Part shown: positions 1,021-29,215 of the stretch, piece by piece
How positions within the stretch are numbered: the first letter of the stretch is position 1
How the letters are laid out: each line of letters begins with the position of its first letter
From: Ceratodon purpureus
Taxonomy: Eukaryota; Streptophyta; Bryopsida; Pseudoditrichales; Ditrichaceae
DNA: 64,000 nucleotides
Assembly: GCA_014871385.1 (NCBI GenBank)
Contig: CM026426.1
Coordinates: 17,174,183 to 17,238,182 of the forward strand
Reading direction: 5' to 3'
Notes under the pieces: model-generated
Seen by the model: only the letters and a program-made list of their open reading frames with translations
Database searches by the model: none
Told to the model about the DNA's origin: nothing
Position numbers and translations under genes: made by a program

Positions 1021-1052
1021 CATTAGAGACCATTTCGGGTCATTGGAAGGCC
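1021..1052 (+). repeat. Left terminal inverted repeat, 32 bp
   Basis: It begins CATTAGAGACCATTTCGGGT and ends TTGGAAGGCC. All 32 bases match the reverse complement of 20814-20845. I saw no other copy in the window. Confidence 0.75.
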
Positions 1053-1469
1053 TTTTAAGGGAGGCTTCGGCAGTACTCTCAAGCAAATTTTCACCTCGGG
1101 CACGGTGCCCCTGTGAGGCACAATTGAGTTCGGGCAGCCCTTTAGCGTCGCTGTCAGTCCCTGCGTGGGTACAAGAGAGCCTCGAACGTGGCCTGAGTGT
1201 CATCGTAGGCCCGCACCTTGCTAAACCCATCCTGCTAAATCAATGATGAATGTGGAATTGGAGTGGTACCCCAGCAGATCATTTTATACTATTTCAGATC
1301 ATTTTATACTATTTTGAGGTAGATCAAGTTGGCGCGAAACACTGCCAACGCAGCGAGATGTGGCGGGAGAGCTTGTGCGAAAATATCGACTAGGAACTTT
1401 GTGTAGTTTGAGGCAATTGACTTAGATTCACGGAGGTTAGAGATTGCAGCGGGGTTTAGGTGCTACAGC
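1053..1469. other. 5' flank of the transposase gene, with a 2 x 20-bp tandem repeat
   Basis: No coding sequence is supported here. A perfect tandem repeat (CAGATCATTTTATACTATTT twice) occupies 1275-1314. It could be part of the promoter or a subterminal transposase-binding region; neither is shown by the sequence. Confidence 0.5.
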
Positions 1470-4400
1470 ATGGCGTTGAGAGATGTTACAAACTGTGTTG
1501 CTACTCCGTATGTCCCGCAAATCAAACTGCACCCGAGGTTTGCTCCGTTGATTAGAAGAGGACAAAGGTTAGAAGATCAGCCTACACCGGAGAGCTTTGT
1601 AGAGAGGAGAGCAGCAAATGAGACACATATCGACCTCTGGATCGATGGCAGAATCTACCCATTAGATCCGGCGACGAAGCAACCACCTCTATTTCGGACA
1701 ACCAAGCAATACATCGAATATTGCTGTGAAGGAGAGAATGGTATGTTAGGATACACCAAGCGGTTGAGCTACGGCCACACTGAGGAAGGACAGTTGAATT
1801 TGGTAAATCGGCTGCAGCAGGAGGTGAACAGTCACGAGCGTTGCATCATGCAACTACGTGCGCAGTGTGAGGATTTGCAAGTGAAATTGGACAATATGAC
1901 CCATGATGAAAACCGGCACATAGAGGAGCGACTAAAGCTAGAAGGGGACATTAGGACTTTGGAGATATCGTGTGCGGAATTGAGGGTGCTAGTGGCCCAA
2001 TCTGATGTCGCGAGGGGTGAGTTCAGGGAACGCGAGGAGCAATTTAGTGCTTTAGAGGCCGAATTGAGAAATCAGAGAGAGGCTTGTGAGAAGCTCCAAG
2101 AGAAGATGAAGAGAATGGTGAAAACGCCGCTTGGATTTAGGGAGCGTGTCCACAGTCGTAAAATGAAGTGTCTGGATGAGCTTGCTCCTGGCTCCGGCCA
2201 CGCAAAGCGAAGGAGAACTACGCTACGATATCAGATTCAGCCATCGACAGTGTCACAAGTGCAGGAATTCAACAAGCGACAAGGAAGGAAGAGGAGGCTC
2301 GGGGGTGATGGAACGTTGCACAACAAAACAGCTTCAGTTCTTGCTAGTGTATTGTCTGCACGTGAGGCTCGCAAGCTTGCGGAGCAACCACGAATGAGTC
2401 AAGCAACTACAGCGGCCGCAGTGTGTATTTTCAAGAAAATTAAGAAATCGATAACAGAGGAAGTGATGTTGGGGACTTGTGATGCATCTGGCGTGAGTAA
2501 TAGAGGATATGTGGCGATGTGTAATGCCGTAAAACATCGGGTTCAGTTAGTTGCTCCAGAACTAAAGGGTGGTCTTTTGCCATCGAAGCACCGCCTAGCG
2601 CTGTTGCGAAAGCAGATGAATGAGAAGCTTCCTCAATTTATAGGAGACTACTATCAAATAAAAGGTCGCCGAATAATTCCCGAGGTCAGGGTTGGGAAGA
2701 AGATTGTGCGAGGAGCAAAAGAAGTTATTCTTGATGACAAGAACAATCTCTTTGCGGAGCTGGAGGTTGTGCAGCGGTCGATGGTGCTGTTCTACGACAT
2801 GACTATGGAAGGTAACGTCGTTCATTGTCACCTAAATTTTCAAGGTCTGTGAACTACTATGGGACATTGTGAAGTAAACTGTAGTGAAGTTCGAATGCAC
2901 CACGAGTTATCGTGAAGAATTACATTGAAACTCAGAAATTGATGGGAAATGCTGAAGCAAGATTAACTTGGCTGGCTCCATAATTGCCTTTGTAAGAAGA
3001 ACAAATGAATAGAGAATTTGTCAACAATAGGTAACTTGACATGATGCACCGTCCATGGATAATACCAACTGTCAGAATAGTGGTGCATCAACAATTCACG
3101 GTGTGGTTTTCCAGTGGCATTGCTGAAGTTGCTGGATGCTTGTGAAAAAACTCTAAGGGGATCATTGTCTCATAGTGGAACGTGAAACACAAATTTGTGG
3201 AAGTGCTGTGCGGTCAAGGCGTTGATTCATTGTGCAGCTGCGAACAGTCGCTTAATTAATGCCTCATACCGATTATGACCAAAATATTTCAAAATTAATA
3301 ATTGTGGAACCTGGTTGCTGTACTACAAACTGGAGTCTGTTCTAATAAGTACACTGTAGATTAATTTGGGGCAACATAGTATTACTTTGTGCTGGGTCTT
3401 ATTATAAATTCGTATTGTGCAGAGTGCAATGGCCGGCCATTGGTCTTCGTGCTAAAATTGGACAAAGCAGAGGTGTTGCGGGAGAAGAAGTTTGAACGTG
3501 TGAGCCTGACTCTGATGAATAGGGCCCTCGATCCCGAGATTCAACGCAATGATGAGAGATATTTTTCGGTCCAGAGTGAACAGGAGATTTGGCCCATTGG
3601 GTGCTTCCAAGTGGAGAAGGAGTCTCACGAAATCTTGAATTGGGTATTTGAGCAGACAAGATTCCCTGAGGTAATTGCGGCTCAGAATGCAAGCCAGTTG
3701 CTGGAGGTACCGGGCCGTGGATCTTTCACGGTTGAGTGGCACTTGTCAGCGGACATGAAGACAATTAAGTGTATGAACGGGCTGTAGCATGGACCTAGCT
3801 GTAAAATGAACTGCATTTACTGCGAGCAGAAGCATGAGAGAGCCAAGACCGTGACAGCTGCTGACGCCGAACGTACTGCCACGACTAGAGAGAAGGGTGA
3901 ATGGCAAGGAGGCTTGTTCGCATCAAGGATTTGAGCTGAACCAGTTGATGCAGCCACGCACCCACGTTGGAAGCAGGTGCTACCTATCCCTCTATCACGG
4001 ACCCACATGTGCACATTACATGCTCTGGTCCGAATCTGTGAAAAAATATTGCATTTGCATTTTATGTTTATTTGGAACATGCAAGACAACGCTAGGAAAA
4101 CGGAAGCTATAGATCTCATGGAGAAGTCACTATCTGCCATTGGCGTGGAATCGGGAAACTGTGTGCTAAAGCAAGATGTGAAAAAATCTGGGAAGTCTGG
4201 TAATGTGGTTATGAAACCCAGCTTGCGTGGTGGAGTGGCCATAAAGTTATTTGGTCCTAGTTCATGGTCGACTCATACCAGAGTGTGGAAAGACGTCACT
4301 ATGTCCGAGATGAATAATCTAGAGAATGGTCAAGCGAAAATCAAACGACAGAGAGTGTGGGAAACGCTAGAGGACCTGGTGCCGTACTTCACTCGATTAG

Positions 4401-5214
4401 TGTTGTCACTAGATCAGAGACGGGATTGCAAACATCGGATGGATGCTTTCGGAGCAGCATATATCAAGGCATTCGGGGAAGGCCACGTCACGCACTACAT
4501 TGTGAGTTTTTGGTGCCATGTCCATTGTTAATGAAGTTTTCAAGTAGTTGTGATTGAGATCACGGTACATGTAAATACTGCTGCACAATTGTAATTCGGA
4601 GGTGTCGAAGGCTTCGTTGGGATCCATTTGAAATGTGCATGTAGCTATTCTTCATTCATGCTGAAGCTCGAATCTGGACATTGCAGCATGCTCTTATAAA
4701 GCACGGCCCTTGGTTCGTCGAAAAGTATGGTAGCCTTTCTGTGTGGAGCTGCCAGGGGATGGAGAAATCGCACCACGTGGCCAAATCGTCAAGTCAGGCA
4801 CATTCTCAGCATGGGGGGACAAAGGATCGAACTAGTGTAGTTGTTCAACAATATGAATTTTGGTATCGAAACATACAACATAGGTACGATGCAAAGTTGA
4901 AGAAGAGGATTGCTGATGCAGAGTTAGGCCTTCCCGACGTAGAGGTGCAGGCTGCAGGATCGAGACGGCGGGATGCTTGGCATGCTTCCAATGCTGCGGC
5001 AGCATGTCGTGAGTGGCGAGCGGCGCGCACACGAGAAGGTAGGCGTTATGTGATTGCTTCAACTGAAGGAGAGGCCGTTCAGGCAGAGGATGAAACTTCA
5101 CCGGGTTCTGGCAACAGCAACGACATGGATGAAGAACTGACGGAGTCGTCGCAATGTCGAGATGAGACACAGGATTCTACTCAATCAGATTACGGTGTCA
5201 CTGATATCACATAG
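1470..5214 (+). CDS. RAG1/Transib-like DDE transposase, four exons, one in-frame TAG
   Basis: Predicted exons are 1470-2844, 3423-3896, 3954-4501 and 4687-5214, with introns 2845-3422 (578 bp), 3897-3953 (57 bp, doubtful because so short) and 4502-4686 (GTGAGT...TTGCAG). All phases agree and total 975 codons. If the 57-bp intron is not real, a TGA at 3932 is also in frame. Residues ~105-215 are coiled coil, followed by a basic patch. The catalytic part shows D472 (VLKLDKAEVL), D569 (LSADMKTIK), C589-x2-C592, an LHALVRI motif, H800-x4-H805 and E825 (GSLSVWSCQGMEK). RAG1 has D600, D708, C727/C730, H937/H942 and E962. The D-D and D-E gaps are 97 and 256 here against 108 and 254. The two His-to-Glu distances (25 and 20) are identical. 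A TAG at 3785 (codon 580), between D569 and the CxxC pair, is not at a plausible splice site, so this copy may be dead or need read-through. The tail is acidic and Ser/Thr-rich. Transposase assignment is inference from motif spacing. Confidence 0.75.
2845..3422 (+). other. Predicted intron 1 of the RAG1-like gene
   Basis: Donor AAG|GTCTGT and acceptor TTGTGCAG|AGTGC leave one base plus two bases that complete a codon. The catalytic frame is joined directly to the N-terminal coiled-coil exon. Confidence 0.65.
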
Positions 5215-5458
5215 GTACATGGTGCTTGTCAGTATACACTTAGTTGAAAGAGGTAAAGATGAACGGCCACAATTATCATCTCTTCAAAAACGTGATTTAA
5301 CTGTTGTATAAATTGAATCTGTGTAATTTGATATCTTGACGCAGCACATGTTATCATTCACCCTAGTGAATGCAATTGTCAAAAACTTCAGAAACTTCCA
5401 AGCTGAGTTCTCCCTAACATATGTGTACGCATGTTGGGCCATCAATGCTGAGGGTGAT
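5160..5458 (+). repeat. ~300-bp direct repeat, copy 1 (3' end of transposase gene)
   Basis: It contains the last ~17 codons (DETQDSTQSDYGVTDIT, stop) and about 240 bp of 3' flank. It is repeated with few changes at 8340-8630. The two copies flank the minus-strand RING gene. Confidence 0.9.
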
Positions 5459-5746
5459 GGATGAGTTGTATTATAGCTTACTGAAGTACATTAAAAAAAT
5501 GGTTACATGCAGGTGTGATGCCGCATTCCTCAACAAAAATGAACAATGACTTTACCACGAAGCAACATTCAAATTGTAATCAATCAAAGCTGAGGCAAGA
5601 GTGGGTTTTTGTATGTCATTGTTGACATTTTATGTGAATAAAAAAATTGGGATTCATGCTGAAGCAATAACATGGCAAATGTGTTTATCCTGGCAGTGTA
5701 GTATACTAAATCCAATTTGACTACAAGGAATATCTGAAGAACTAAT

Positions 5747-7786
5747 CTACCCGTCATTGGTCTCGTCGTCCTCAACCTCTGCGGCCGCATCCTTTGCAAT
5801 CGCCAACAGTTCCATGACAAGTTCGTCGTTGGAACTTGACAAGGTAAGTTCCCTTGGTGATTTCGTTCCGATCTGCGAACGGCACGGACTTTCATACAGG
5901 TTCGGCATGGCTTCATCATCGATGTCCCCTTGTATGTCGCTGCTAGCGTCCGAACTGACTACACGCTTTGGAGAGACATCATAGGTTTCATATGGGCGCT
6001 CCACCTTGTCTACGGTAGTCTCCGAGAGCGTAAAGTCGGAAACTGCGTGGGCACGTTTGGAAGGTCCACGTACTGCTTCAACATTGCAATCTAGGGCAGT
6101 ACGCTTCCGCACCTTCAGTCCAGCCTGAACTGCGGCTCCAGGCTTTGCAATCTGCCTGACCAAGTCCTGTGCCTCCTTACGAGAGAGCGGTGGTGCGCAT
6201 CCCTCCGCGGACATGCATGCACGCCATGCTTCGATACTTGCCTGCATAGTTGCATCATTCGAAACAAGGCCCCACTGCCCCATCCAAACCCCGCTTGGAA
6301 CCTCATCACAACAAGGACATTTTGGATTTCTACCGAGCACAATCTTGAACATGCAACAAGGATGAAATAAGCAACCGCATGGGAGATTGACCAGAGCCAT
6401 GTCTGCCCAAAAGCGGCCGCACATCCCACAGGGGAGGTCTCCTTTGAGTCTTCTCATTCCTGTCGGTGCAACAGGGAAAGACGAGAAGAATTGCTGTGGG
6501 CGAACACAGCTCTCTTCTATAATAATGACATCGACTTGGCGCTCTATGTCTTGAAGTAAATTAAACAAGGTACGAACCTGCTCACCTAACGACTTTACTC
6601 TCTCGCTCTTTTCTACCAGTGCCGCCCGGTTCTCCTCAACAGCTGCGCTAGCCTTACCGCATGCGGATGATACAGCTCGCACCTCGTTCTGCGCCGCAAC
6701 TCTTGCGGAAGCATCACAACCAACGCCTTTTTTAGCTGATTGTAGCATGGCAAACTTGTCCCAAAGCTCCTCCTCTGCCCTCACGAGCGTCTGTCCATGC
6801 ACCTGCTCGTCCTTAAGCTCCAGCTGCCTCCGCTCCAGCTCAACGGTCAGTTTGTCGTGCTCCGCCTGAACATGTGATTTTCTGCGTAGTAAACCTGAGA
6901 CCTTCGATCCCTCTCCGTGCTGACCTGATCCGTTTGCTTTCATGGATCTGCGCTGGCGTGGTGTGGTAACCTGCGTCAATAGAACGTCGACATATGCTGC
7001 GGCCGGAACCATGCTCAGTTGCTGCCGTAGAGCTTGCTGAGAATGAAGAACTCCCGACAATGCGTGATCTATATGAGCCTCTGGGTCCACGCTGACTTTA
7101 GCGGCCTGCAGCTGCCGAATCGCTGTCGCATGGGCCAACTGCAAACGACCAACAAGATGCTGAAAAAAATCTAACAAAGCTTGGATTTGTTCCCGTATGC
7201 AGGGCGGCGTCATCTTCTGCGTGGAGTGGCGCATTGATGTCTTCATACGGTGTGAAGCCAACTCCGCAGCCCCCTCAGCCCAATTCACCTTAAGGTCCCG
7301 CGATTCAAGTTCCACTCCACGCAGGAACGCAGTCCCATACTCACCATTATCTGGACCACATCCACCATGCACCTTCTGATGCATGCGTTGTATCTTCCAA
7401 ATGTCAAGTACATTCTCCATCAGTCGCATGGGGTGACGGTTCCCGGTTCGATTCAGCGGATACTTGCGAGATAGCTCCAGCGTGGTGAGCCCGTGGTCGT
7501 TCTTGAGCTTACGAAACGGAATTCCTTCGTTACAAAGCCCTCCAACTTCTGCAAAAAAAGAACAGGTATACTCAGCCTGCTCGCTACCCATGAGGAATGG
7601 TGCACGGCGTGTCATTGCTTTACGCATCGCCGGGAGGAAATGGTCAATGCTGAAGGCCTCTCTCCAAACAGTCAGGTCCGTTGCAAGTAGCTCTGGATTC
7701 TCTCCGTCGCCGCCTGAGTCAACAGGAGAACCACAATGCGAAGCAGGTCTCACTTTAACACGCGCCATGTCAGGAAAAGAGCGCAC
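5747..7786 (-). CDS. Coiled-coil RING-type zinc-finger protein (RING-1), 679 aa
   Basis: An intact single-exon frame. ATG at 7786 gives 679 residues; an in-frame ATG at 7768 (MARVKVRP) is an alternative start. The N-terminal domain (~75-215) contains SFFAEVGGLCNEG and VNWAEGAAEL, both shared with RING-2 at 12.4 kb. Residues ~290-425 are predicted coiled coil. The zinc finger at ~450-495 reads CGMC-x13-CGCLFHPCC-x11-CPCC. This has RING spacing, but the fourth ligand is Cys and the fifth His, the reverse of a classical RING-HC. An acidic, serine-rich, lysine/arginine-patched tail follows, suggesting a nuclear protein. It is probably a ubiquitin ligase-like or structural RING protein; substrates are unknown. 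It is transcribed convergently with the RAG1-like gene, about 530 bp away, and lies between two ~300-bp direct repeats. Confidence 0.8.
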   Translation of the reverse strand: MRSFPDMARVKVRPASHCGSPVDSGGDGENPELLATDLTVWREAFSIDHFLPAMRKAMTRRAPFLMGSEQAEYTCSFFAEVGGLCNEGIPFRKLKNDHGLTTLELSRKYPLNRTGNRHPMRLMENVLDIWKIQRMHQKVHGGCGPDNGEYGTAFLRGVELESRDLKVNWAEGAAELASHRMKTSMRHSTQKMTPPCIREQIQALLDFFQHLVGRLQLAHATAIRQLQAAKVSVDPEAHIDHALSGVLHSQQALRQQLSMVPAAAYVDVLLTQVTTPRQRRSMKANGSGQHGEGSKVSGLLRRKSHVQAEHDKLTVELERRQLELKDEQVHGQTLVRAEEELWDKFAMLQSAKKGVGCDASARVAAQNEVRAVSSACGKASAAVEENRAALVEKSERVKSLGEQVRTLFNLLQDIERQVDVIIIEESCVRPQQFFSSFPVAPTGMRRLKGDLPCGMCGRFWADMALVNLPCGCLFHPCCMFKIVLGRNPKCPCCDEVPSGVWMGQWGLVSNDATMQASIEAWRACMSAEGCAPPLSRKEAQDLVRQIAKPGAAVQAGLKVRKRTALDCNVEAVRGPSKRAHAVSDFTLSETTVDKVERPYETYDVSPKRVVSSDASSDIQGDIDDEAMPNLYESPCRSQIGTKSPRELTLSSSNDELVMELLAIAKDAAAEVEDDETNDG

Positions 7787-8339
7787 TGGTTAGGAAGAGG
7801 AGAATGTGTATAGGGTCAATAGATAGAATGTTGAAGCAACTGAAGACTACTGAAGACTACAGTAGCAAGAAGTGCAACGGAGTTGGCTGCCTAAGCAAGA
7901 TAAGCTTCAAGCCTGCTTTGGGAGGTAAGTGCGACGCCGTGGTGATGTTTGCTGCAGTCCACTTCTTGGTTACTGCCTTTGGTTGCAAACATGATTTGAT
8001 TGAAACACTTCGTTTACGGCAACTGTACATGGTACTAGTGTAGTTATATTTTAAGGAATTGACTTGCTGAATTCTGTATGGCGCGATGATTTAACGGTGG
8101 ATACTCTGAAGTCAAAGGGTAAGCATCGCCGGCTTTAGCCGCCACGCATTCTCGTAAGTTAGTTAGTGGGGATGTTGTATAGGATGAATTGAGAGAACCT
8201 TTATAATTTTGTATTTGAAACCACATGTCGGGAAACTAGAACTACCAATGAGATGGAATCCGAGGTCGCAGTTGTACATTAGAGGGACATCGGCGGGCCG
8301 ACTTGTTTAAGTGTACACAGCATTGTAAAATGATGAACC
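7787..8339. other. Spacer upstream of RING-1
   Basis: Probably holds the RING-1 promoter. I see only short open frames without recognisable content. Confidence 0.4.
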
Positions 8340-8630
8340 AGATGAGACACAGGACTCTACTCAATCAGATTACAGTGTCACTGATATCACATAGGTACAT
8401 GGTGCTTGTTGGTATACACTTCGTTGAAAGAGGTAAAGATGAACGGCCACAATTATCATCTCTTCAAAAATCTGATTTAACTGTTGTATAAATTGAAGGA
8501 AGGATTATTTGATATCTTGACGCTGCACATGTTATCATTCACCCTAGTGAATGCAATTGTCAAAAACTTCCAAGCTGAGTTCTCCCTAACATATGTGTAC
8601 GCATGTTGGGCCATCAATGCTGAGGGTGAT
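8340..8630 (+). repeat. ~300-bp direct repeat, copy 2 (orphan transposase 3' end)
   Basis: It matches 5160-5458, including the last transposase codons and stop (DETQDSTQSDYSVTDIT) and the 3' flank. It lacks the upstream coding exons. An 8-bp difference and a few substitutions separate the copies, and similarity stops abruptly after GAGGGTGAT. Confidence 0.9.
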
Positions 8631-9479
8631 TTTTTAGGACAGTAGTTTAATGAAATAATATGAATTCCTTTGTTTCCAAGTCAACGGCCTTCCGGTACCC
8701 ATGTCTGAGCTATTAACGTTGAATAGAGATTAGTGTACTTTATATTAATTCTAGAATTTCATACTTGTAATATCTTCGGCTCTTCTCAATTGTCAAAGAA
8801 ATGCTGCTTATATTGCCCATTGTGAATAACATATATCCCAGGATGAACATTGGTATTGCAAGGTAAGTAGAATCATGTGCAAAAACAATCTTGAGATTTG
8901 AGAGCATATTCACTAAAATATCAATGTTGGAACTGGTTAGCTTACAAATGTTTAATTTAGAATAAACTATACATTTTTATGATATTTGATCCAAAAGTTG
9001 TTTGAAGAAGTAATTTTTCAGAATTCAAATGGTTTAATATATCTTAATATTGATATTCATATCTTTATAAATTTAATTATTTGATCACTTCTATGAAATA
9101 ATGAAATGAACGTATAATTATTGGTGAATACTGTACATTTCCTTCCTCAGATTGTACGAATTCATAAAAAATTGGAAGATTTATAATAAAAACCTTGTTC
9201 ACTTTGGTTATATCTGGCAGTACAGCATTTGTGTGAAAGTAACGTTTCATTTGGTGTCCACTACTTAGGATAATGGATGGGGGGTGGACGCCTATTGCCA
9301 TTTTGGAGCCTTTATTTAAGTCAATTGGTGATAAATAACGACATATGAAAAAAACGGAAAGTAGCCATAAAATATAAAACAAAAGGCAAAAAAGTAAATA
9401 ATAAATGAAAGAACAAAAATTGAAGCCCAAGAAGGGTAAAAACATAATTCCAGAACAGCAAATGAAGAGATCATTAGGG
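8631..9479. other. AT-rich spacer
   Basis: No gene or named repeat recognised. The degenerate start of the satellite array follows. Confidence 0.5.
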
Positions 9480-11430
9480 AAGAATTAGTTATTATTCACG
9501 TTTCACTGAAACTTCATTTCTCATTCATCTATTTTTCATCCACTCATAAAAGATAAGTTCACTTCAATGTTTCCTTCAATTTTCTATCATTGTGAATATT
9601 GTTTTCAACTCTTGCCATGCTGCTTAGATGCTTTAATTTTTAATATGGTTCTAATTGGGGTTAGTTTTGTGCACAATGATTAAAGAAGAATTAGTTCTTA
9701 TTCATGTTTCACAGAAAATTCATTTGTCATTCATCCATTTTTCATCCGCAAAAGATAAGTTCTCTTCCATGTTGCTTTCAAATTTCATATTTACGGATAC
9801 CATTTCACCCTTGTCATGCTTCAGTGCCTTTTTCTGTTATTTTGCTCTAATTGAGGAGCTATATCTCGCACGGTGATTAAGGTGGAATTAGTTCTAATCC
9901 AAGTTCTACTGAAACTCGATTTTTCATTCATCTATTTTTCATCCACCCATCAATGATAACATATGAATGTTTCCTTTAAAATTCAAGAATCACAAAAACT
10001 GTTTTGACCCTTGCAATGCTTCAGCGTCTTATGGTTTAGATGCTTCAAATTGGATTGAGTTCTATGCAACCCAATTAAGGAGGGATTAATTCTCATTCAT
10101 GTTTCATTGAAACTTCAATTTTCAGTCATCTGGTTTTCATCCATCCACAAATGATGCACGTGGACTTCAATGTTTCCTTCAAATTTCAGCAATTACAAAA
10201 ACTGTTTTAACACTTGCCATGCTTCAGTGTTTTTTTTTTTTTTCTAGTTCTTCTAATTGGATTGAGTTCTGTGCAAACCGATTGAAGGAAGGATTTGTTC
10301 TGATTCATGTTTCACATAACTTCATTTGTCATTCTTTTGTTTTACCTCCATCCATAAAAGAAAAGGTCACTGTTATGTTTCTTACAAATTTGGTAATAAG
10401 GGACTCCCGTTCTCACCCTTGCCATGCTTCAATGCCTTTTTCTTTTATTTGGTTCTAATTGGGGAGCTATATCTTGCACAGTGATTAAGGAGGAACTAGT
10501 TCGTATTCATGTTCAACTGAAACTCCAATTTCCATTCATCTATTTTTCATCCACCCTTAAAAGATAACATATAAATGTTTCCTTCAAATTTCAGTAATTA
10601 CGAAAACTGTTTTGACCGAGCCTCCATGCTTCAATGCTTTATTTTTTATTTTTATTTGGTTCAAATTGGGTTCAGTTCCATTCATACTGATTAGGGGTGT
10701 GTTCTTTCTTATTCATATTTCACCGAATCTGGCTTCTTCCGAATGTTTCCTTCAAATTTCAGCAATTACAAAAACTGTTTTAACACTTGCCATGCTTCAG
10801 TGTTTTTTTTTTTTTTCTAGTTCTTCTAATTGGATTGAGTTCTATGGAAACCGATTCAAGAAGGATTAGTTTTCATTCATGTTTCATTGAAACTTCAATT
10901 TTCAATCATCTAATTTTCATCCATCCACAAATGATGCACGTGGACTTCAATGTTCCCTTCAAATTTCAGCAATTATGAAAATTCTTTTGACCCTTGCCAT
11001 GCTTCAGTGTTTTTTTTTTCTTTTCTAGTTCTTCTAATTGGATTGAGTTCTATGGATACCGATTAAGGAAGGATTAGTTTTCATTCATGTATCATTGAAA
11101 TTTCAACTTTGAGTCATCTAATTTTAATCCATCCACAAATGATGCACGTGGACTTCAATGTTCCCTTCAAATTTCAGCAATTATGAAAATTCTTTTGACC
11201 CTTGCCATGCTTCAGTGTTTTTTTTTTTTTTCTAGTTCTTCTAATTGGATTGAGTTCTATGGAGACCGATTGAAGGAAAAATTTGTTCTGATTCATGTTT
11301 CATTGAAACTTCAATTTTCAGTCATCTAATTTTCATCCATCCACAAATGATGCACGTGGACTTCAATGTTTCCTTCAAATTTCAGCAATTACAAAAAACT
11401 GTTTTGACACTTGCCGTGCTTCAATGTTTT
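9480..11430 (+). repeat. Left satellite array, ~205-bp units (about 10)
   Basis: Each unit contains GCCATGCTTCAGTG, a poly(T) run, TTGGATTGAGTTCTATGG, a CATTCATG segment and ATGATGCACGTGGACTTCAA. The GCTTCAGTG anchor recurs near 9815, 10012, 10216, 10420, 10625, 10787, 10997, 11206 and 11414, mostly 197-210 bp apart. Outer units (9.5-10.6 kb) are much more diverged than inner ones. Open frames here are low-complexity artefacts. Confidence 0.9.
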
Positions 11431-11477
11431 TTTTTTTTTTTTCCCAAAAAGAAGAAAAAACAAAAAAATTATATTTT

Positions 11478-11613
11478 GGCACTCCAACTGTGCACTAGAA
11501 AGCGTGGTGGGGTGGGTGTCGGAGGGTGGATTCGAACCCGGCACCAGCACCCTGGGGCTGCCACGACAGTACGAACCCGAAGCCTCGGATCACCAAGCCA
11601 CCAAGGCTTTGAC
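11478..11613 (-). mobile_element. tRNA-derived SINE, copy 1
   Basis: On the minus strand it reads GTCAAAGCCTTGGTGGCTTG and later GGGTTCGAATCC, an exact RNA polymerase III B-box core. It ends GTTGGAGTGCC next to a T-rich tail. A 50-bp leader with GGAACTCAGGTTCC lies 5' of it (to ~11670). Confidence 0.75.
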
Positions 11614-11690
11614 GAAGAAAATGTACATCATAAGCATACTTATATGGAACCTGAGTTCCTAAAAATTGATAAAAAAAATAAAAAATAAAC

Positions 11691-11977
11691 ATCTCCTTGA
11701 AGCAAGTTCCTGAATTTGTTATTTTCAGTGTCGACTGCTTTTAACCAGTCACTTTTTTGATTATGTGCACCGCTACTTGAACATGCTTCAGTGGTGTTAT
11801 GCTTTACTGTGTTTATGCTTGACCCAGGCTTCTTTGTTGTATGCTTAGGCAAGGAACAATACTACTATAGCATTCAAGTGGGGCTAAAACTCTAGTTTAA
11901 TTCTGTAATTATGAAACGTCCCTGAAGTACCCCTGAACATCGACATCTTAAATACAAGTTAACTAAAATAATCAATG
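11691..11977 (-). repeat. ~287-bp inverted segment, left copy
   Basis: Nearly identical in opposite orientation to 15839-16125. With the SINE and array outside it, it forms the left arm of a multi-kb inverted repeat around RING-2. Confidence 0.9.
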
Positions 11978-12368
11978 GAATGTGACGTGCTAAGCTCTTG
12001 CTTACCTCCAAATTGAATCATAGCTCATTTTTATTGGCAGTTCTCAATTCTCGCCCAGACGATCACTTCACCTTGATGATCTGTACCTTCCACTCTGAAT
12101 GTTTGAGCTCTTAAACCCGGGCTGCTTCACCACTTGGCAGTCAACGTTCACAAGCTCACTTTTAAGCTTTGCACAAACAGTATCTGGAAGCTCCTTGTTG
12201 CAGCTCGTTGAGCTTCAGGTCTCGTTTTCTGCTTGTGCCTTTTGTCGTTGACGTTGTGCTGCCCCAGAAGTCTTGATTACTGCACATTGTTTTAGCATTT
12301 CACTTATGTTGTGTTCTGACAGTGTGATATCAATGTGTTTAGGAGCTGCGTAGTTCGGTGTTGTCAAC
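11978..12368. other. 5' flank of RING-2
   Basis: Unique sequence between the inverted-repeat arm and the RING-2 start; a promoter is likely here but no specific element can be named. Confidence 0.4.
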
Positions 12369-13835
12369 ATGGTGTACCACAAGAAGCGGAAGTCCGGACA
12401 GGGTAGCCCTTCAACGCCAAAGCTCCGAAACACGCCCACTGTCGAAGACGACGAAGATGCCAGAAGTGGCGACGACGAAGTGGAGGGTCTTGCTGCCGCG
12501 TATGACTGGGCCAGCTCCGAATTTGATGCTCCTTTTGACCTCACGGGAATTCCGGATGCTGTGCAGGAGAAGCTGCTGGCGGCGGCGCCAGTGCTACGTG
12601 GCAGAAACGCAGTGTATGAACACAGCTTCTTCCGCGACGTTGTTGGCCTATGCGACCGGGGACCATTGGTGGACGACGTCGGTAAAGCGTACCCGCAAAT
12701 CACGGAGGCGTCGGTGAAGCAGGTCTGGAGGATTGGTGCGCAGCCGAACCGATTCGAGGTCGCAAACTGCGCAGACAAGGACCAAGCACACCTTTTCCTC
12801 CAGTTCAACTATAAGGTGTATGGAAATCGGCCCGACAACTTCTACTTCGCAATGCGATTTCTGAAGGCGGCCTTTGCAACCTTCGTCCACGGTTTTGACG
12901 TCAATTGGGTTGCTGAAGCAGAGAGACGTCGTTCGAAGCGCCTGGCAACAGCAACGAAGAACCCAATGAAGCTCGGTCCCGTTGCTCTACGCCGTCAAAT
13001 TGAGGGACTCTGTGGCATTCTGAAGGAGGTGACCACCGGAGCTCCAGCGCATCGGTCGGTGCCCGCCTCCGTTGTAGCAGCGCAGAAGATGGTGGACGAT
13101 GCTGTGGAGTGTGAGGCCAAAGCATCGGTTGTTCTTCAGGAGATCTCACGCCGATAGGATGACGCCACGCGGAGCTTGATGAAGATCACCATCGACGACA
13201 TTGGCAGAGTTGAAGCAGAGCATACCGACGCCGTGAAGGAGCTCCAGCGTGTCTTCCGAACTGGGATGTCGGTGCAGTACAAGGAGCAGGCTGATGCAGC
13301 ACGTGTCCTGTCGGTGAAACTGACGCAGATGCAGGAAGAGCACATGTTGGCTCGTGACACCGTCAACGCCCTCACTCAAGCCAATGGACCTGTGGAGCAC
13401 GCCAAAGCAGAGCATTCGAAGGCGCAGGACATGGTGAAAGAAGCACAGGTGGAGTTGTGGAGCGCTAAGCGAGAGAATCTCATACTACGTCCTCGACCTG
13501 TGTTTAAATTCCCCTTCAATCAGTCTGTTCCACCAATCGCCTCGCCGATCCTCCCCGAAATCTGCCCACTCTGCGACAGAGGGTTTGTTGCAAAAGCTGC
13601 AATCCTGGGGCCTTGCAACTGCCTCTTCCATGCAGTTTGCATTGCGGAGATGGTCGATGCTGCTCCAGCTTACATCTGTCCCACGTGTGAAGTGAGGATG
13701 GATCCAGCTTGGATAGCACAATTCAACGGCAAGGTCACTGAAATTGAAGATGACGAAATTGAAGCCACTCATCGGAAGTTAGAGGATGTCGCAATGTACA
13801 CATTCGGCTGCTATGCTTCCGCACACGCAACCTGA
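12369..13835 (+). CDS. RING-type zinc-finger protein (RING-2), paralogue of RING-1, one in-frame TAG
   Basis: From ATG 12369 the frame is open to 13835 except for a TAG at 13155-13157, giving about 488 codons. It shares with RING-1 the SFFRDVVGLCDRG motif, the VNWVAEAERRRSKR region, a following R-x-QIEGL helix, a coiled coil (~265-375), and the finger CPLC-x13-CNCLFHAVC-x12-CPTC at ~398-442 with the same 13-residue C2-C3 spacing. The N terminus is an acidic, low-complexity leader. The TAG either truncates the protein before the coiled coil and RING, or is removed: an in-frame 130-bp intron, 13028-13157 (GTGACC...GATAG), would end exactly at the TAG and keep phase. cDNA would decide. The gene is enclosed by inverted satellite/SINE arms. 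Confidence 0.7.
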
Positions 13836-14205
13836 TCTGCTCTGTTCCACAAACTCTAGGACAAGTTTACTATAAACACTCTTGATGTGCACTCACTTCT
13901 GAACTTCACATTTGCTTGTAAATGTTGCTTCGACCGTTGGTTTCCGTCGCTTGAACTTATTGAAGCCACATTTTGAAAACCACGGTTGTTGCATTCTGAA
14001 CTTCCAGTTACCGTACTCTTAATGTCTTTAAAAACCTTCTGAATTTCACTACTTTTGTATTCCAAGTTTATGTGTTGATAGACATCGATGTTTACAAGAT
14101 GAAATATGCTTCATAGTTCCTCAATTTGCCTTGCTACAAGTGCTTACGCATGGTGTCCACTTTGATGAAGCTACCAAATTTTAAATTTCTCTTTTTTTTT
14201 TTTTT
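13836..14205. other. 3' flank of RING-2
   Basis: No feature recognised beyond the probable 3' UTR. Confidence 0.4.
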
Positions 14206-14261
14206 TCAATTTTTAAGAACTCAGGTTCCATATAAGTATGCTCATGATGTACGTTCTCTTC

Positions 14262-14398
14262 GTCAAAGCCTTGGTGGCTTGGTGATCCGAGGCTTCGGGT
14301 TCGTACTGTCGTGGCAGCCCCAGGGTGCTGGTGCCGGGTTCGAATCCACCCTCCGACACCCACCCCACCACGCTTTCTCGTGCACAGTTGGAGTGCCA
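14262..14398 (+). mobile_element. tRNA-derived SINE, copy 2
   Basis: Same layout as copy 1: GTCAAAGCC start, two tRNA-like blocks each with a GGGTTCG element, GGGTTCGAATCC B box, GTTGGAGTGCC end, T-rich tail. The GGAACTCAGGTTCC-type leader lies just upstream. Confidence 0.75.
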
Positions 14399-14484
14399 TA
14401 TTTAAAATTTTTCTTTTTTCTTTTTTTTTATATTTTAAGGAACTCAGGTTCCATATAAGTATGCTTATGATGTACATTATCTTC

Positions 14485-14620
14485 GTCAAAGCCTTGGTGG
14501 CTTGGTGATCCGAGGCTTCGGGTTCGAACTGTCGTGGCAGCCCAGGGTGCTGGTGCCGGGTTCAAATCCACCCTCCGACACCCACCCCACCACGCTTTCA
14601 AGTGCATAGTTGGAGTGCCA
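14485..14620 (+). mobile_element. tRNA-derived SINE, copy 3
   Basis: Tandem to copy 2 in the same orientation. The first block keeps GGGTTCGAAC; the second has GGGTTCAAATCC, one change in the B box. Confidence 0.75.
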
Positions 14621-14639
14621 AAATATTATTTTTTTGTTT

Positions 14640-15730
14640 TTTCCTCTTTTTGGGAAAAAAAAAAAAAAAAAAAAAAAACATTGAAGCACGGCAAGTGTCA
14701 AAACAGTTTTTTGTAATTGCTGAAATTTGAAGGAAACATTGAAGTCCACGTGCATCATTTGTGGATGGATGAAAATTAGATGACTGAAAATTGAAGTTTC
14801 AATGAAAAATGAATGAGTACTAATCCTTCTTGAATCGGTCTCCATAGAACTCAATCCAAAAAGAAGAACTAAGAAAAAAAAAAAAAAAAACTGAAGCATG
14901 GCAAGAGTCAAAAGAATTTTCATACTTGCAGAAATTTGAAGGAAACATTGAAGTCCACGTGCATCATTTGTGGATGGATGAAAACCAGATGACTGAAAAT
15001 TGAAGTTTCAATGAAACATGAATGAAAACTAATCCTTCTTGAATCGGTTTCCATAGAACTCAATCCAATTAGAAGAACTAAGAAAAAAAAAAAAAAAACA
15101 TTGAAGCATGGCAAGGGTCAAAAGAATTTTCATATTTGCTGAAATTTGAAGGAAACATTGAAGTCCACGTGCATCATTTGTGGATGGATGAAAACCAGAT
15201 GACTGAAAATTGAAGTTTCAATGAAACATGAATGAAAACTAATCCTTCTTGAATCGGTTTCCATAGAACTCAATCCAATTAGAACAACTAGAAAAGAAAA
15301 AAAAACAGTGAAGCATGGCAAGGGTCAAAAGAATTTTCATATTTGCTGAAATTTGAAGGAAACATTGAAGTCCACGTGCATCATTTGTGGATGGATGAAA
15401 ATTAGATGACTGAAAAATTGAAGTTTCAATGAAACATGAATGAAAACTAATCCTTCCTTAATCGGTATCCATAGAACTCAATCCAATTAGAAGAACTAGA
15501 AAAGAAAAAAAAACAGTGAAGCATGGCAATTGTTAAAACAATTTTTGTAATTTCTGAAACTTTGAAGGAAACATTGAAGTCCACGTGCATCATTTGTGGA
15601 TGGATGGTGACCAGATGACTGAAAATTGAAGTTTCAATGAAACATGAATGAGAACTAATCCTTCTTGAATCGCTATCCATAGAACTCAATCCAATTTGAA
15701 GCATCTAAACCATAGGACGCTGAAGCATGG
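14640..15730 (-). repeat. Right satellite array, inner block (~208-bp units)
   Basis: Reverse-complement orientation of the left array. The anchor GAAGCAYGGCAA recurs near 14680, 14891, 15099, 15307, 15513 and 15720, spaced 206-211 bp. Units are very similar to one another. Confidence 0.9.
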
Positions 15731-15838
15731 CAAGGATGATGAAACATTAAAATGGAAAACCAGGTTTCAGATTGTCATCAAACTGAACTAATCTTGACCC
15801 TCAGATACTGTGCATCTCGGACTAAGCCAAAAAAATTC

Positions 15839-16125
15839 GATTGATTATTTCAGTTAACTTGTATTTAAGATGTTGATGTTCAGGGGTACTTCAGGGACGT
15901 TTCATAATTACAGAATTAAACTAGAGTTTTAGCCCCACTTGAATGCTATAGTAGTATTGTTCCTTGCCTAAGCATACAACAAAGAAGCCTGGGTCAAGCA
16001 TAAACACAGTAAAGCATAACACCACTGAAGCATGTTCAAGTAGCGGTGCACATAATCAAAAAAGTGACTGGTTAAAAGCGGTCGACACTGAAAATAACAA
16101 ATTCAAGAACTTGCTTCAAGGAGAT
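15839..16125 (+). repeat. ~287-bp inverted segment, right copy
   Basis: Inverted counterpart of 11691-11977. The same 70-residue non-genic open frame appears in both copies, differing by one residue inside the segment. Confidence 0.9.
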
Positions 16126-16202
16126 GTTTATTTATTTTTTTTTTTTTCAATTTTTAGGAACTCAGGTTCCATATAAGTATGCTCATGATGTACGTTCTCT
16201 TC

Positions 16203-16339
16203 GTCAAAGCCTTGGTGGCTTGGTGATCCGAGGCTTCGGGTTCGTACTGTCGTGGCAGCCCCAGGGTGCTGGTGCCGGGTTCGAATCCATCCTCCGACAC
16301 TCACCCCACCACGCTTTCTCGTGCACACTTGGAGTGCCA
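16203..16339 (+). mobile_element. tRNA-derived SINE, copy 4
   Basis: As copy 2, with CATCC instead of CACCC after the B box. Confidence 0.75.
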
Positions 16340-16425
16340 TATTTAAAATTTTTCTTTTTTCTTTTTTTTTCGATTTTTAGGAACTCAGGTTCCATATAAG
16401 TATGCTTATGACGTACATTATCTTC

Positions 16426-16557
16426 GTCAAAGCCTTGGTGGCTTGGTGATCCGAGGCTTCGGGTTCGAACTGTCGTTCCCTAGGGTGCTGGTGCCGGGTT
16501 CGAATCCACCCTCCGACACCCACCCCACCACGGCTTTAGTGCACAGTTGGAGTGCCA
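16426..16557 (+). mobile_element. tRNA-derived SINE, copy 5
   Basis: As copy 3, with a small deletion between the two tRNA-like blocks (CTGTCGTTCCCTAGGG). It is followed by a poly(T)/poly(A) stretch and then the outer array. Confidence 0.75.
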
Positions 16558-16617
16558 AAATATTTTTTTTTTTGTTTTTTCTTCTTTTTGGGAAAAAAAA
16601 AAAAAAAAAAAAAAAAC

Positions 16618-17830
16618 ATTGAAGCACGGCAAGTGTCAAAACAGTTTTTTGTAATTGCTGAAATTTGAAGGAAACATTGAAGTCCACGTGCATCATTTGT
16701 GGATGGATGAAAATTAGATGACTGACAAATTGAAGTTTCAATGAAACATGAATGAAAACTAATCCTTCCTTAATCGGTATCCATAGAACTCAATCCAATT
16801 AGAAGAACTAGAAAAGAAAAAAAAACAGTGAAGCATGGCAATTGTTAAAACAATTTTTGTAATTTCTGAAACTTTGAAGGAAACATTGAAGTCCACGTGC
16901 ATCATTTGTGGATGGATGATGACTTCTTTACTGAAAATTGAAGTTTCAATGAAACATGAATGAGAACTAATCCTTCTTGAATCGGTATCCATAGAACTCA
17001 ATCCAATTTGAAGCATCTAAACTATAGGACGCTGAAGAATGGGAAGGATGATGAAACATTAAAATGGAAAACCAGGTTTCAGATTGTCATCAGACTGAAC
17101 TAATCTTGACCCTCAGATACTGTGCATCCCGGACTAAGCCAAAAAAAATTTTAAATTTTTTTTAAAAAAAAGTAAAAAAAAAGTAAAAAAATGAAATCCT
17201 GAAGTAAAGTTTCACGTTCACATAAAAGCAAACCAATCCTGATCCTCAAATAGTGTGCACGGAACTGAATTCAAAAAAATTCAAATAAAATAAAGAAAAT
17301 GAAGCAAGGCAAGGTGAAAAACAATATCTATAATTATTGAAATTTAAATTAAGGTGAAGTGGTCAATCAAAGGATGGATGATAAATGGATGGCTGGCAAA
17401 TTGAGTTATATGTTCACTTCAAAGTGAACTACTCTTGACCCTCAAATAGTGTGCACCAAACGAAATCTAAAAATTATCAAGTTATAGAAAACATTGAAGC
17501 AAGGGAAGGCGGTAAAGAATATCTAAAATCATTGAAATTTAAAAAGAACTTCAAAGTGAACTTAAGGAAGGATGAGAAACGGATGGATGAAAAATATTCT
17601 TTAAGTGAAACATCTGGATGTACACTCTTCTGTCAAATACTCAGAGCACAAAACTAAATCCAATTAAAATCATTTTAATAAAAAAATTGAAGCAAGGGAA
17701 GGGGAATAACAATATGTATAATTATCAAAATTACTAGAAACTTCAAAGCCTTTGGTAGATGGATGAGAAATGAATGGATGAAAATTACAGTTTGAGGTTC
17801 TCATGAAACTAAATTTCTCATCCGTGGATG
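16618..17830 (-). repeat. Right satellite array, outer and decayed block
   Basis: Units anchored near 16618, 16827 and 17030 are clear. From 17210 outward the same unit persists only as fragments such as GAAGCAAGGGAAGG and GGATGGATGA at roughly 190-bp spacing (17309, 17495, 17690). Confidence 0.85.
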
Positions 17831-18069
17831 CATTCGTAATGATGGATTGTTTGCCAAATAGACTTTAATAATTGAAACATCAAAATGAACCAATTTTTCC
17901 TGAAAGGGTACAAAGTTATTTAAAAAAGAACATTGAATAACAGTGAGTAGGATTCAATCAAGGGTGGAATAATAAAAAATCCATAAAATTTAACTTCACG
18001 TAACCAACCTCAAATATATCATGTTCTCAATCTACACTAAGATGTACCCTGACTGGTACACTTCTGTAG

Positions 18070-18155
18070 AATCTCCGCTACAGCATGTGTAATCTTTGGT
18101 TTGGGCACCTGCTAAAGCAATAAAATCTCCGCTACAGCATGTGTAACCTTTGGTT
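18070..18155. repeat. 54-bp tandem duplication
   Basis: AATCTCCGCTACAGCATGTG occurs at 18070 and again at 18124, each followed by TAAYCTTTGGTT. Confidence 0.8.
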
Positions 18156-18457
18156 CATGTCCATCTAAAAGCAACAGCCGTGGCTTTGAAGTAATTTCTT
18201 GGTAGTAGATTTCCATGTTATCACGTACTTTATATAAAATTTATAGCCGAAATTTGTGATAGATACAAGGAAATCCTTGCCTTCTTCATACAAACAGTAG
18301 CATGCATAATCCATATGTTTTTTTTGCACCGACATTCCTCTAAAAGCACCTCTACATGCTGCACGGTCACCAAGCCAACTAAGCACGGCTACTATCAACA
18401 TTAGTGCCGTTTTTGCTGCTCTACTCAAGATGTGAAGAAGTTGCTGAAGCACGATTC

Positions 18458-19806
18458 CTAAACCACCATCTTGAACCTCGCTCCCAACGGCATGACAGCC
18501 TGGATCTCGGTGCTTCGTTCCAGCCGCTGGTTTATCTGCATAAACACGATATTCAAAATTGAGCAAGCATATTTGGATCACTTTATACATCTTTCAGTGC
18601 AATTCCTCTCCGATGCTAGAAATGAACTACCTTTCTGTCGGGTCGACCTGGCCACTCGATAACAAGGTCATAGAAGTCCGGGATGTCTTCTCGCGATAAG
18701 AGAATTGCAATCTCGTTCCTAATTTGGGACACTGGCCATGACTTCCCAACCTCAAATGCCGGCAACACTTCACCCCTGAAAACAACCTCTGCCTTGACCA
18801 TGTCTGGAATCACAACCTGATCCATTGCCACCAATCGCTGCCCTTCCAGCCGGAATCTTACGTAGCAGAAGGTCATATATAGAGTCTGTCGTGCTAGGTG
18901 GTAACGGAAACCCACGGTCCCTTCACTGACTACACATTTGATAATGTCTTGACCACTCTGCCACTTGACATTCCAGCCAGGGTCCATTAAGCTAGCCAAA
19001 AGCAAGGAAGATGGAGATCCGAAGGTGTACATTGCTGGAGTCCGTCGAATGTCATCTGCGACCGCAAATAAATCCGCCATTATATGGACTGGCAGAAACC
19101 AGTGCACGTGGGCAACCTTACTCCCTGTGCTACCCTTCATTGCGGTCGTAACATCCTGTGCCATCTTCAAGCGGAAGGCCTCCGACGTATGCATGTCCGG
19201 AATTGGCCAAAACGGATCAGAGAGCTCTGGGAGCGGCAACGCCTCCAAACTCCCATAAAGCTCGGTACCAGACCGAGGTACATACACCGCTCGGAGAAAA
19301 AAAGTTCCATTCTGAAGCAGCTGCCTATGGCTTCTCCCTTGCCGTCCCGATTCTCCAATCTCATGGTGTAGCACCAAAATCACATCGAGAATAGAGGAAG
19401 GTGGAACCAAGTCCTCCCAGTAGGAGGCGTACAGGAAATTGCAAGTTCGAGGCTCTGTGGCCCCTACAGCAGGATCAAGGTCCAATTGGTGACGCTGGTA
19501 AGCGTGTCGCACTTTCACTGCGACAAGCTTTTGGACAACCTTGCCGCGTACCAAGCTCTCAGTGAACTTAAACCTCACCACTTGTGCCTTCCACGCACCG
19601 GCAAAGGATTCCACACCATGTACACGCGCATCCTTTGCCCAAGGTCCGCGCGTTGCTGGTTTGAGTGTAATCCACGAATCTATCTCAATTCTCAATGGTA
19701 TCCACCTCCCTGTCGTAGCATCCTTGTCGTTGAATATGACAACGCTCTGCACCTCACTTGCGGGAGATTCCTCTGTTGCCATGATCTTCAGCCTGAAGAC
19801 ACGCAC
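18458..19806 (-). CDS. Unidentified two-exon gene inside the right end of the candidate transposon, 417 aa
   Basis: Exon 1 runs from ATG 19806 to 18631, where a donor (AAAG|GTAGTT) follows codon 392. Exon 2 starts at 18535 after TTTATGCAG and ends at TAG 18458, adding 25 residues; the 95-bp intron keeps phase 0. Reading on without splicing would give 396 residues. A second ATG at codon 9 (MATEESPASE) could be the start. The protein is rich in predicted beta segments, with many W, F and V residues, and no zinc ligands or transmembrane span. The region near residue 340 (AEVVFRGEVLPAFEVG... then IRNEIAILLSREDIP) faintly recalls a ubiquitin-like fold, which is weak. Function unknown. Its GC-balanced, intron-poor character matches the RING genes. 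Confidence 0.65.
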
Positions 19807-20813
19807 ACCGCTTGCTTCAGCTCTAAATCATAGCTACAGCATGATATCCACCGGTCATGTTCAAAAACACACGTACCTTATCCACCTCTTCAGCACTGCC
19901 GATTCCCGAAGTCACTGCGTGGGGACCGTTGGTGACACGCACACTCATTGCGTCAGCTCTGAACAACAATCTCATTATGCAGTTCAGTTATTCCCGATGG
20001 GTGTACAATTATCAACGTGAAGTTTACACCTGCAGAATAATGTCAACAAGTCATGCTAAGAAACTAACTTACCTTGTCCACTTCTTCAGCACCGCCGATG
20101 TATAGTAGGCGCCGTTGGTGAACCTGCACAGCAATCAATTTGCAAGGTGAAAAATCAGCTTTATGCTCAAGCACTGCTACGCCAATTTTGAACGGCAAAT
20201 ACACATTCCTCGGAACCCTGCTCATCACCTATCTACAATACTGTCAATTCGAAGGTCCAAGATTTCTAATAGAGTCAAAGCAGAAATCTAAAGTGCAAAC
20301 CTCCTCTCGAGCTTGCATCGGCTCTAAACAACAGCAAACTTTCAAACAATTGTTCATGAAAATCACCTTGAAGCACGTTACGACCACCTACTGCAGGAGC
20401 ATCTGCGGCCGCGACAGATGGTTAGCCTCCCCGATTTGCAAGCCGTTGGTTGCAGGTGCTGAGTAAGCATCTCTCCCGCCATCGAGATGTCTCTCTCAGC
20501 GGCTTGGCAAATTATATTCTAATCAAGCTAGGAGATAAAAAAATTCTCCTCTCAAATAGGCCGAGTACCATCGCATGCTTCCGAAGTCACAGTCAGTTAC
20601 AGCCATGAAGTGGAAAATAAAATTATCTATTCCAGTTTTGCAAGTGCACACTTGAGACACAAGTGCAGGGATTCCAACTGGATACAATCTTCAACGACGC
20701 TCATTGGCCTGGACAGTAAAACATCTGATGTGTTTCGCCAAATGGCATCACTGGTAACAAGTCACAGAGCCCAGTGTCGATGTCCTATGCTTGAGTTCTC
20801 ACTGCCCGGGAAG
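19807..20813. other. Upstream region of the 417-aa gene with degenerate internal repeats
   Basis: Short related segments recur, for example ACCTTATCCACCTCTTCAGC near 19870 and ACCTTGTCCACTTCTTCAGC near 20070, and CAGCTCTRAA motifs near 19820, 19955 and 20315. No coding sequence is supported. Confidence 0.5.
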
Positions 20814-20845
20814 GGCCTTCCAATGACCCGAAATGGTCTCTAATG
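20814..20845 (-). repeat. Right terminal inverted repeat, 32 bp
   Basis: Perfect reverse complement of 1021-1052. Directly outside it lies CATGTTCTGTGCAAAAC, a copy of the dispersed dyad motif. Confidence 0.75.
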
Positions 20846-24008: not shown

Positions 24009-24228
24009 AATTGTAATAAGTGAATGTATTACTTAGATGTAAATTGTTATAAGTTAAAGAATTCAGATTTACTTGAATCAAAATTGTAATAAGTGAATGT
24101 ATTACGTAGATGTAAATTGTTATAAGTTAAAGAATTCAGATTTACTTGAATCAAAATTCTAATAAGTGAATGTATTAAGTAGGTGTAAATTGTTATAAGT
24201 TAAAGAATTCACATTTACTTGAATCAAG
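24009..24228. repeat. Three 73-bp tandem repeats
   Basis: Units begin at 24009, 24082 and 24155 (AATTSTAATAAGTGAATGTA) and end TTTACTTGAATCAA. They differ at only a few positions. Confidence 0.9.
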
Positions 24229-24740: not shown

Positions 24741-25096
24741 TGTATTTTTGATAAAGGTAATGTAACACGTATTTTCTTTTACGTGGCCAGATCCAAAAAA
24801 GGAGTGTTTCCAGATGTTTTAAACTGGATCTAAGTACATAAGTATTTAAATGGATTTAAGTGTTTCGAGATGTTTTAATATGGACCTAAGCACATATAGG
24901 GTACTAAGTACATAAGAGATTAGTTCTAGTTCATTATACCACTCCTTCTGAATCAACCATGGCTAGCCAAGTAGTGTCGTTCAGGCTCTTAACTTCTTCG
25001 ATTCCTTTCATTCTTCTTGTCGATGACATAGGCTTTGTTAGTGTTGATGAGAGATTGTTATGTCTTAAGTTTTAGTTACATGAGAGCTCTTTAATA

Positions 25097-28000: not shown

Positions 28001-29215
28001 AGACAAGGGCCATGTCGGAATGTGTTGGCGCTTCGTCTCGCTACTCTTAAGGGTAACCCTGTAAAAGTGGCTCAGATTGTTAGTCAAATTTCAAGCAAGG
28101 CCGGTTTGAATTCGAGGTTGCCTCATCTTGAAGGTGAGAACCATTTTGATTCAGCGAAGAAGAAGCTAGATTTGGCTCCTGGTGATGATGATGATTCACA
28201 TCGTCATGACCGAGTGAATTTCACTCTTCCTAAGCTAGGGAAGAATATGACGCCTGGACAGAGTCGCTCGTTGAATCAGAATTCCACCACAAGCAATCCT
28301 TCACTCACTAAAGGCTCTGTGGAAAGACGTGTGGTAACCTGCAATGGCCTTCCAATCCGTGAGACTCCTTGTTACAATCCCATGGACTGGCGGATTGAAC
28401 GAATTTCACGTCAATCCAAGGACCAATGCAACGGCTATAACAGCAATGGCAAGAGATGCAATGCGGTGATGGCAAAGTATCGAAGGGCTACAGCTGCTCC
28501 AACATTTACTGGCCTTCAAAGGAAATACAAATCTCAAGATTCAGAGCAGAAGCAGTTCTGGCCTATTATGCTTGGGACTAATTTGTCACAAGCAGAGGTC
28601 GACAGATTGGAATCTGCAGGTTTTATACTGGAAGAAGATCACCTTGCCCCATCTAAGGAGATTGAAGGTGAGAAGCAAAATGTTCATCCGGCCATGACAG
28701 AAAAAGGAAAGTCTACTGATGCCTTTCATTGGAGCAATCCTATCTACACTCCATCTGAGCCTGTTGATGGTCCAAGACCCGCGAAGTCATCAGGAGATTA
28801 CCGTCCCACCATGAGAGATGGTAAGAAATTCAAAAATGTGTCTGAACCTTCACCTGAGCATGTTGCCAAGTTTGTCAAATCAATTACCACCGACTGCTCT
28901 GTGGTGAAATATGTGAAGGTTCTGTATCCAAGATATGGAGTAGTTTACACTATCCACACTCCTGGTTCCATTGCCAAGAATCAACTTTATGAGGTTACCA
29001 TTGGAGATTTTCCTGCCTGTACGTGCCTTGATTTTATTACTATGAAGACCACAACCCTTGGTCGTGGGCAGAAAAAGTGGATCCTTTGCAAGCACCTCTA
29101 CTGTCTTCTACAGCAATACATGGGATGTACGGTGGACGATAAGTTTATTCACCGTCCAGCTTGGACATTCAATGAAGTTGGCATGCTTTTAGACAGATGT
29201 TCAAGGGAGATCTAA
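25097..29215 (+). pseudogene. Mutator-like (MULE) SWIM-domain transposase, frameshifted
   Basis: Homologous segments lie in several frames: 25097-25993 (acidic N-terminal part), 26045-26601, 26601-27014, 26966-27245 and 27818-29215. The last is joined by a clean intron (27246-27817, TCAGAG|GTAAAA to GATTGCAG). The catalytic region has VMFDHVKRVKEW and GFMADSAQANFNAV, the latter in the position of the second MULE Asp, followed by CQFHW. The C terminus has a SWIM zinc finger, CTC...CKH (LCKHLYCLLQQ). Frame changes near 26155, 26590 and 26950 cannot be repaired by obvious introns, so this copy is probably dead. The reading frame near the start uses GTG; an upstream ATG (24959) is separated from it by an in-frame TAG. 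The intron carries four dyad motifs. No terminal inverted repeats or target duplication were found. Confidence 0.75.
27354..27558. repeat. Four dyad motifs in the MULE intron
   Basis: GGGTGTTATGTGCAGAACAC (27354, part of a 7-bp-arm inverted repeat), TTCTGTGCAGAACGCC (27421), CATTCTGCACAGAACGCCC (27483) and GTGTTCTGTACAGATCAC (27541). Spacing is 58-69 bp. Confidence 0.7.

Follow-up and report, generated by a model that had tools for sequence, protein, structure and literature searches.

Does a moss genome harbour a transposase of the kind represented by RAG1, the enzyme which cuts antibody genes in vertebrates? The question is raised by a 64,000-nucleotide stretch of Ceratodon purpureus DNA (GenBank assembly GCA_014871385.1, contig CM026426.1, positions 17,174,183 to 17,238,182), hereafter the window. 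An earlier note, made from the letters alone, had read a gene at 1470–5214 as a RAG1-type transposase, a reading which is now supported by fold matches and by residue conservation. Very probably, the window contains a 20-kb DNA transposon of the cut-and-paste type, active until recently but decayed in this copy, with a transposase that possesses a RAG1/Transib core. Such a core would consist of an RNase H-like DDE nuclease and a zinc site composed of a CxxC and an HxxxxH pair.

The transposase, its relatives and the predicted fold

The gene has three exons (Table 1). Joined in phase, they specify a product of 982 residues with the order D-D-CxxC-H4H-E. Judged from sequence, the DDE triad and the putative CxxC and HxxxxH ligands are thus arranged as in RAG1 and Transib. 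The Cys pair follows the second Asp by 20 and 23 residues and the two His precede the Glu by 25 and 20; these spacings, re-measured in the spliced product, are identical to those reported in the earlier note. All seven residues named there exist, but their numbering was wrong (correct numbers in Table 1), and the product is not 974 residues long. Further, the distance from the second Asp (D558) to E833 is 275 instead of 256 residues, so the agreement with RAG1 claimed for this gap does not hold. Two in-frame stops in exon 2, a TAG and a TGA, had been overlooked; because of them the transposase copy in the window is broken.

The assumption of phase-consistent introns turned out to be correct. 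Both introns have GT..AG boundaries, and two related proteins, P0002 and P0007, are uninterrupted across the joins (in P0002 FYDMTVAECNG and ITPYMHILLVHGPYY; in P0007 likewise). The point at which many relatives run out, after THYM, looks like the same second intron.

A first search retrieved 6 related proteins, and a profile search, in which 7,994 candidates were scored, at least 100 with E ≤ 1; overall, 103 different relatives were collected. None of those found carries the name of a transposase. Named sources are Klebsormidium nitens (one protein) and the fern Adiantum nelumboides (five gene models, of which some carry unrelated Pfam domains and are probably chimeric). In 86 of the 103 one can recognize the block that surrounds the second Asp, and the Asp itself is present in all 86. 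Of these, 81 have the Cys pair with its usual spacing; of the five exceptions P0026 has a spacing shorter by one residue, P0097 is truncated, and P0013, P0033 and P0034 lack one Cys. The first-Asp motif occurs in at least 42 and the adjoining LMNRA-type block in at least 60 of the 103 relatives, both lower bounds as the motifs are strict and many rows are fragments. The His-His-Glu motif is present in at least five (P0002, P0007, P0071, P0085, P0103); the pattern demands exactly those residues, and many other relatives end at the second intron. Viral contigs and genome contigs, each queried with two short conserved peptides, yielded no relatives, and on this basis a bacterial or viral origin was rejected.

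Sequence searches hardly detect a relation to RAG1. Pfam has no family match for the transposase, nor does it find a RING in it. phmmer against RAG1 gives borderline E values of 0.015–0.14 with 14 RAG1 sequences, and P0002 or the profiles A2 and A4 yield no RAG1/Transib match. Taken by themselves, the sequence searches were borderline or negative. The structural comparison, of a kind proposed in the earlier note, gave clear matches. It was carried out with models of P0002 and P0007, both uninterrupted; the window copy carries stops. Within the PDB, both models score far higher with RAG1, lancelet RAGL and HzTransib than with other folds. The best RAG1 and HzTransib chains align over 398–454 residues and lead the next family by 5.5 to 8.6 Z units. 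Foldseek E values for the two models are 1.6e-5 or 4.0e-6 and then jump to 0.23 or 0.32. The predicted fold of these relatives is that of the RAG1/Transib core. Conservation among relatives together with the fold matches rules out a chance origin of the residue layout, as had been argued from the layout alone. According to the models, the family would be linked to RAG1 through its fold, a link hardly visible to sequence searches.

Ends, insertion sites and copies of the element

The transposase gene is part of a larger element bounded by perfect 32-bp inverted repeats; 100 shuffles produced none. The left end, ATTAGAGACC, is located at the edge of the shared sequence in 15 of the 17 other copies shown (altered in L018 and L026), and the right end was located in eight other copies. 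Left ends were tabulated for 15 copies: 14 start with CATTAG, one with TATTAG.

Nine complete copies with both flanks were available, i.e., the window copy and L009–L016. None of them has a terminal duplication of the target that measures at least 2 bp. Agreement of a single base before and after the element, seen by eye in four of the nine (the script covered ≥2 bp), is taken as chance. L009 has a 13-bp repeat that stops 7 bp short of the left end and begins again at the right end; this is taken as target sequence. Exact removal of the element restores open frames across the joint of 370 (L010), 365 (L011) and 575 residues (L015). When 5 additional bases are removed, as a 5-bp duplication would require, the shorter side falls from 171 to 29, from 100 to 17 and from 75 to 37 residues, respectively; removal of 3 or 6 extra bases keeps the frame. 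The L015 joint is spanned by the Pfam domain Pol_BBD (77 residues that cover the full 81 positions of the profile), that of L011 by Pfam leucine-rich repeat (LRR) domains. The other six joints are uninformative, having no frame with at least 50 residues on both sides. For L011, a reading in which the target is CG and the element runs from ATTAG to CTAAT was considered by eye. It would disrupt the LRR frame; therefore, the terminal C and G are assigned to the element. Of 15 left flanks, 11 have A at -5 and 13 have C or T at -1, too few flanks to claim a target motif.

These observations are compatible with the following sequence of events. The transposase would bind to the 32-bp ends, and its three acidic residues would cut the element out, perhaps via nick and hairpin. 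RAG1 and Transib cut in this manner. Both ends would then be joined to target phosphates directly opposite each other. Joining of this kind leaves no gap to fill and, consequently, no target duplication.

The element is multicopy and young. The assembly (362,488,568 bp, 151 contigs) was searched with exon 2; 542 candidates emerged, and all 40 of those that were scored match it. Sixteen other copies are 95–99% identical over the query or most of it. Copy number and terminal repeats rule out an ordinary host gene. Six copies are mutually 99.67–99.87% identical over about 7.6 kb and have unrelated flanks. The transposase frame is fully open in 4 of 20 copies fetched (L009, L013, L014, L015) and has a single internal stop in three (L011, L016, L017); in the remaining 13, stops are more numerous, lengths have changed or exons are missing. 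The contig that holds the window (C6; 110,524,308 bp, 30.5% of bases), which we take to be the V sex chromosome of the male assembly, carries 29 of the 40 scored copies and 17 of the best 20 (binomial 5.5e-8 and 7e-7, with copies treated as independent). Among the six youngest copies, however, half (L009, L011 and L016) are located on other contigs. Compared with the diverged copy L028, differences in exon 2 are distributed over the codon positions as 63/41/169, which suggests older selection on the protein; the figures are 74/52/105 for L027 and 36/28/61 for L026. In the youngest copies a codon-position bias in exon 2 is not seen.

Other components of the element and the window

Besides the transposase, the element contains three further genes, A, B and D (Table 1). 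The RING match of frame A is weak (zf-RING_2 E 0.43; BRE1 RING E 0.051). For frame B, zf-RING_2 is found at E 4e-4; two stretches are 25 and 29% identical to A, and in one other copy it is seen only in part. The RING-like proteins and gene D may serve as passengers or helpers. The direct repeats, also present in L009–L017, flank gene A and may record how this gene was acquired.

Table 1. Positions in the window of the element and its parts
Feature	Position	Strand	Remarks
Whole transposable element, 19,825 bp	1021–20845	+ (set by transposase gene)	boundaries shared among copies
Left terminal inverted repeat, 32 bp, CATTAGAGACC...	1021–1052	+	exact inverse of 20814–20845
Right terminal inverted repeat, 32 bp	20814–20845	-	perfect match to left end
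Transposase exon 1	1470–2811	+	N-terminal part, probably with a coiled coil, and beginning of the core
Transposase intron 1	2812–3422	+	GT..AG, 611 bp; relatives uninterrupted across join
Transposase exon 2	3423–4501	+	D461, D558, C578, C581; in-frame stops 3785–3787 and 3932–3934 in window copy
Transposase intron 2	4502–4686	+	GT..AG, 185 bp; many relatives' frames also end there, after THYM
Transposase exon 3	4687–5214	+	H808, H813, E833; stop codon 5212–5214
Direct repeat, first copy	5160–5458	+	92% to 8340–8630; covers the end of the transposase gene and sequence beyond it
RING-like gene A, 673 residues	5747–7768	-	convergent with transposase; frame open in 7 of the 10 other copies examined
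Direct repeat, second copy	8340–8630	+	about 3.2 kb past the first
Tandem repeats, unit of about 208 bp	9434–11442	+	length varies between copies
RING-like gene B	12369–13835	+	related to A; in-frame stop 13155–13157 in window copy
Second tandem-repeat block, same repeats, inverted	14174–17013	-	same unit as in 9434–11442
Gene D, 388 residues	18616–19782	-	belongs to no known family; frame open in 6 of the 7 other copies examined

The window has further contents. Outside the element, a minus-strand frame with an acidic stretch (1–417) is truncated by the window start. A 73-bp unit forms three tandem copies, 93–97% identical, at 24009–24227. A cluster of plus-strand frames at 25076–29212, four of which were scanned without finding a Pfam family, may be another multi-exon gene. 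A tandem duplication of 80% identity (30564–31793 and 32040–33268) carries two similar-looking minus-strand frames. Two 2,037-bp repeats, 99.9% identical (35582–37618 and 52154–54190), enclose minus-strand zinc-knuckle, H2C2 and integrase frames and are probably those of a very young, Gypsy-like long terminal repeat retrotransposon of about 18.6 kb. A minus-strand frame of 857 residues (39941–42511) has no Pfam family. RNA genes and tRNAs were not found in the window.

Position with respect to Transib and RAG1

The transposase looks like a member of a lineage of RAG1-fold transposases separate from Transib and RAGL. Transib and RAGL have 5-bp target duplications and CAC ends resembling recombination signal sequences (RSS) (PMC7204232; PMC9435367), and Transib is a single transposase gene (PMC7204232). 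The Ceratodon element, in contrast, lacks such duplications in all nine complete copies, starts with CATTAG instead of an RSS heptamer-like CAC, and contains several genes: frames A and D are open in the majority of the copies examined, frame B partly. Unlike HzTransib, its transposase gene has two introns and no profile match here. Transposase and frame A converge, an arrangement that resembles RAG1/RAG2, yet no RAG2 feature was recognized: the neighbour is RING-like, and in frames A, B and D Pfam recognizes neither the kelch nor the PHD of the RAG2-like gene in RAGL elements (ProtoRAG, BbRAGL). The RSS-like heptamer and the 5-bp duplication of RAG1/RAGL are equally missing.

Could this be an ordinary member of the Transib superfamily that lost its duplications and terminal heptamer through decay or divergence? 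We consider this unlikely. Six copies differ by only 0.13–0.33%. Among copies this young one would expect to see a 5-bp duplication, yet none of the nine complete copies has one; left ends start almost uniformly with CATTAG, and the element is multigenic. Even less probable, indeed very improbable, is an origin from another RNase H superfamily such as P element, hAT, CACTA or KDZ, with zinc residues acquired by convergence. P element and hAT (Hermes) transposases likewise have an RNase H core with an insertion, but the Z gap over the aligned residues and the jump in Foldseek E values, both obtained with predicted models, separate RAG1/Transib from the rest, and CxxC, H4H and Glu share order and spacing with RAG1/Transib.

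The absence of duplications, in turn, may have arisen otherwise than by blunt strand transfer, i.e., by end joining into existing breaks or by later rearrangement between copies. In favour of this, the flanks compared are those of occupied sites, and the chromosome with most of the scored copies may not recombine. Nevertheless both ends are present in nine of nine copies and three frames rejoin without shift. End joining often loses or adds bases, and rearrangement joins unrelated neighbours; hence we regard this origin as rather improbable and prefer direct insertion without duplication.

Tao et al. (2022) list 39 potential Transib-like proteins in plants; the plants in the figure legend are all angiosperms (Juglans, Capsicum, Corrigiola, Hordeum, Silene); no moss, fern or charophyte is named in the main text consulted (PMC9435367). 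Among the literature sampled on RAG1/Transib in plants, on algae and ferns and on transposase superfamilies, no title deals with this family; absence from print is not claimed. Reportedly, the Ceratodon purpureus genome paper of 2021 introduced Lanisha as a new cut-and-paste superfamily. That the element has already been named there or elsewhere in print is a real possibility, if somewhat short of an even chance; against it speaks that the paper is not known to draw a link to RAG1.

We see an even chance that a RAG1-fold lineage extends across charophyte algae, ferns and probably mosses, invisible to sequence searches, with large multigene elements and blunt integration without duplication. 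If true, a 5-bp stagger would not be an obligatory part of RAG1-type chemistry, and the association of RING proteins with a RAG1-type transposon would have arisen separately from the RING contained in vertebrate RAG1. Because near-identical copies with open frames exist, duplication-free insertion can be tested at the bench. The origin of RAG1 is a long-standing question, approached through relatives known by sequence similarity. A lineage linked by fold would provide an outside reference to distinguish which RAG features are old, such as the core fold and the zinc site, and which are not, such as CAC ends, the 5-bp stagger and RAG2.
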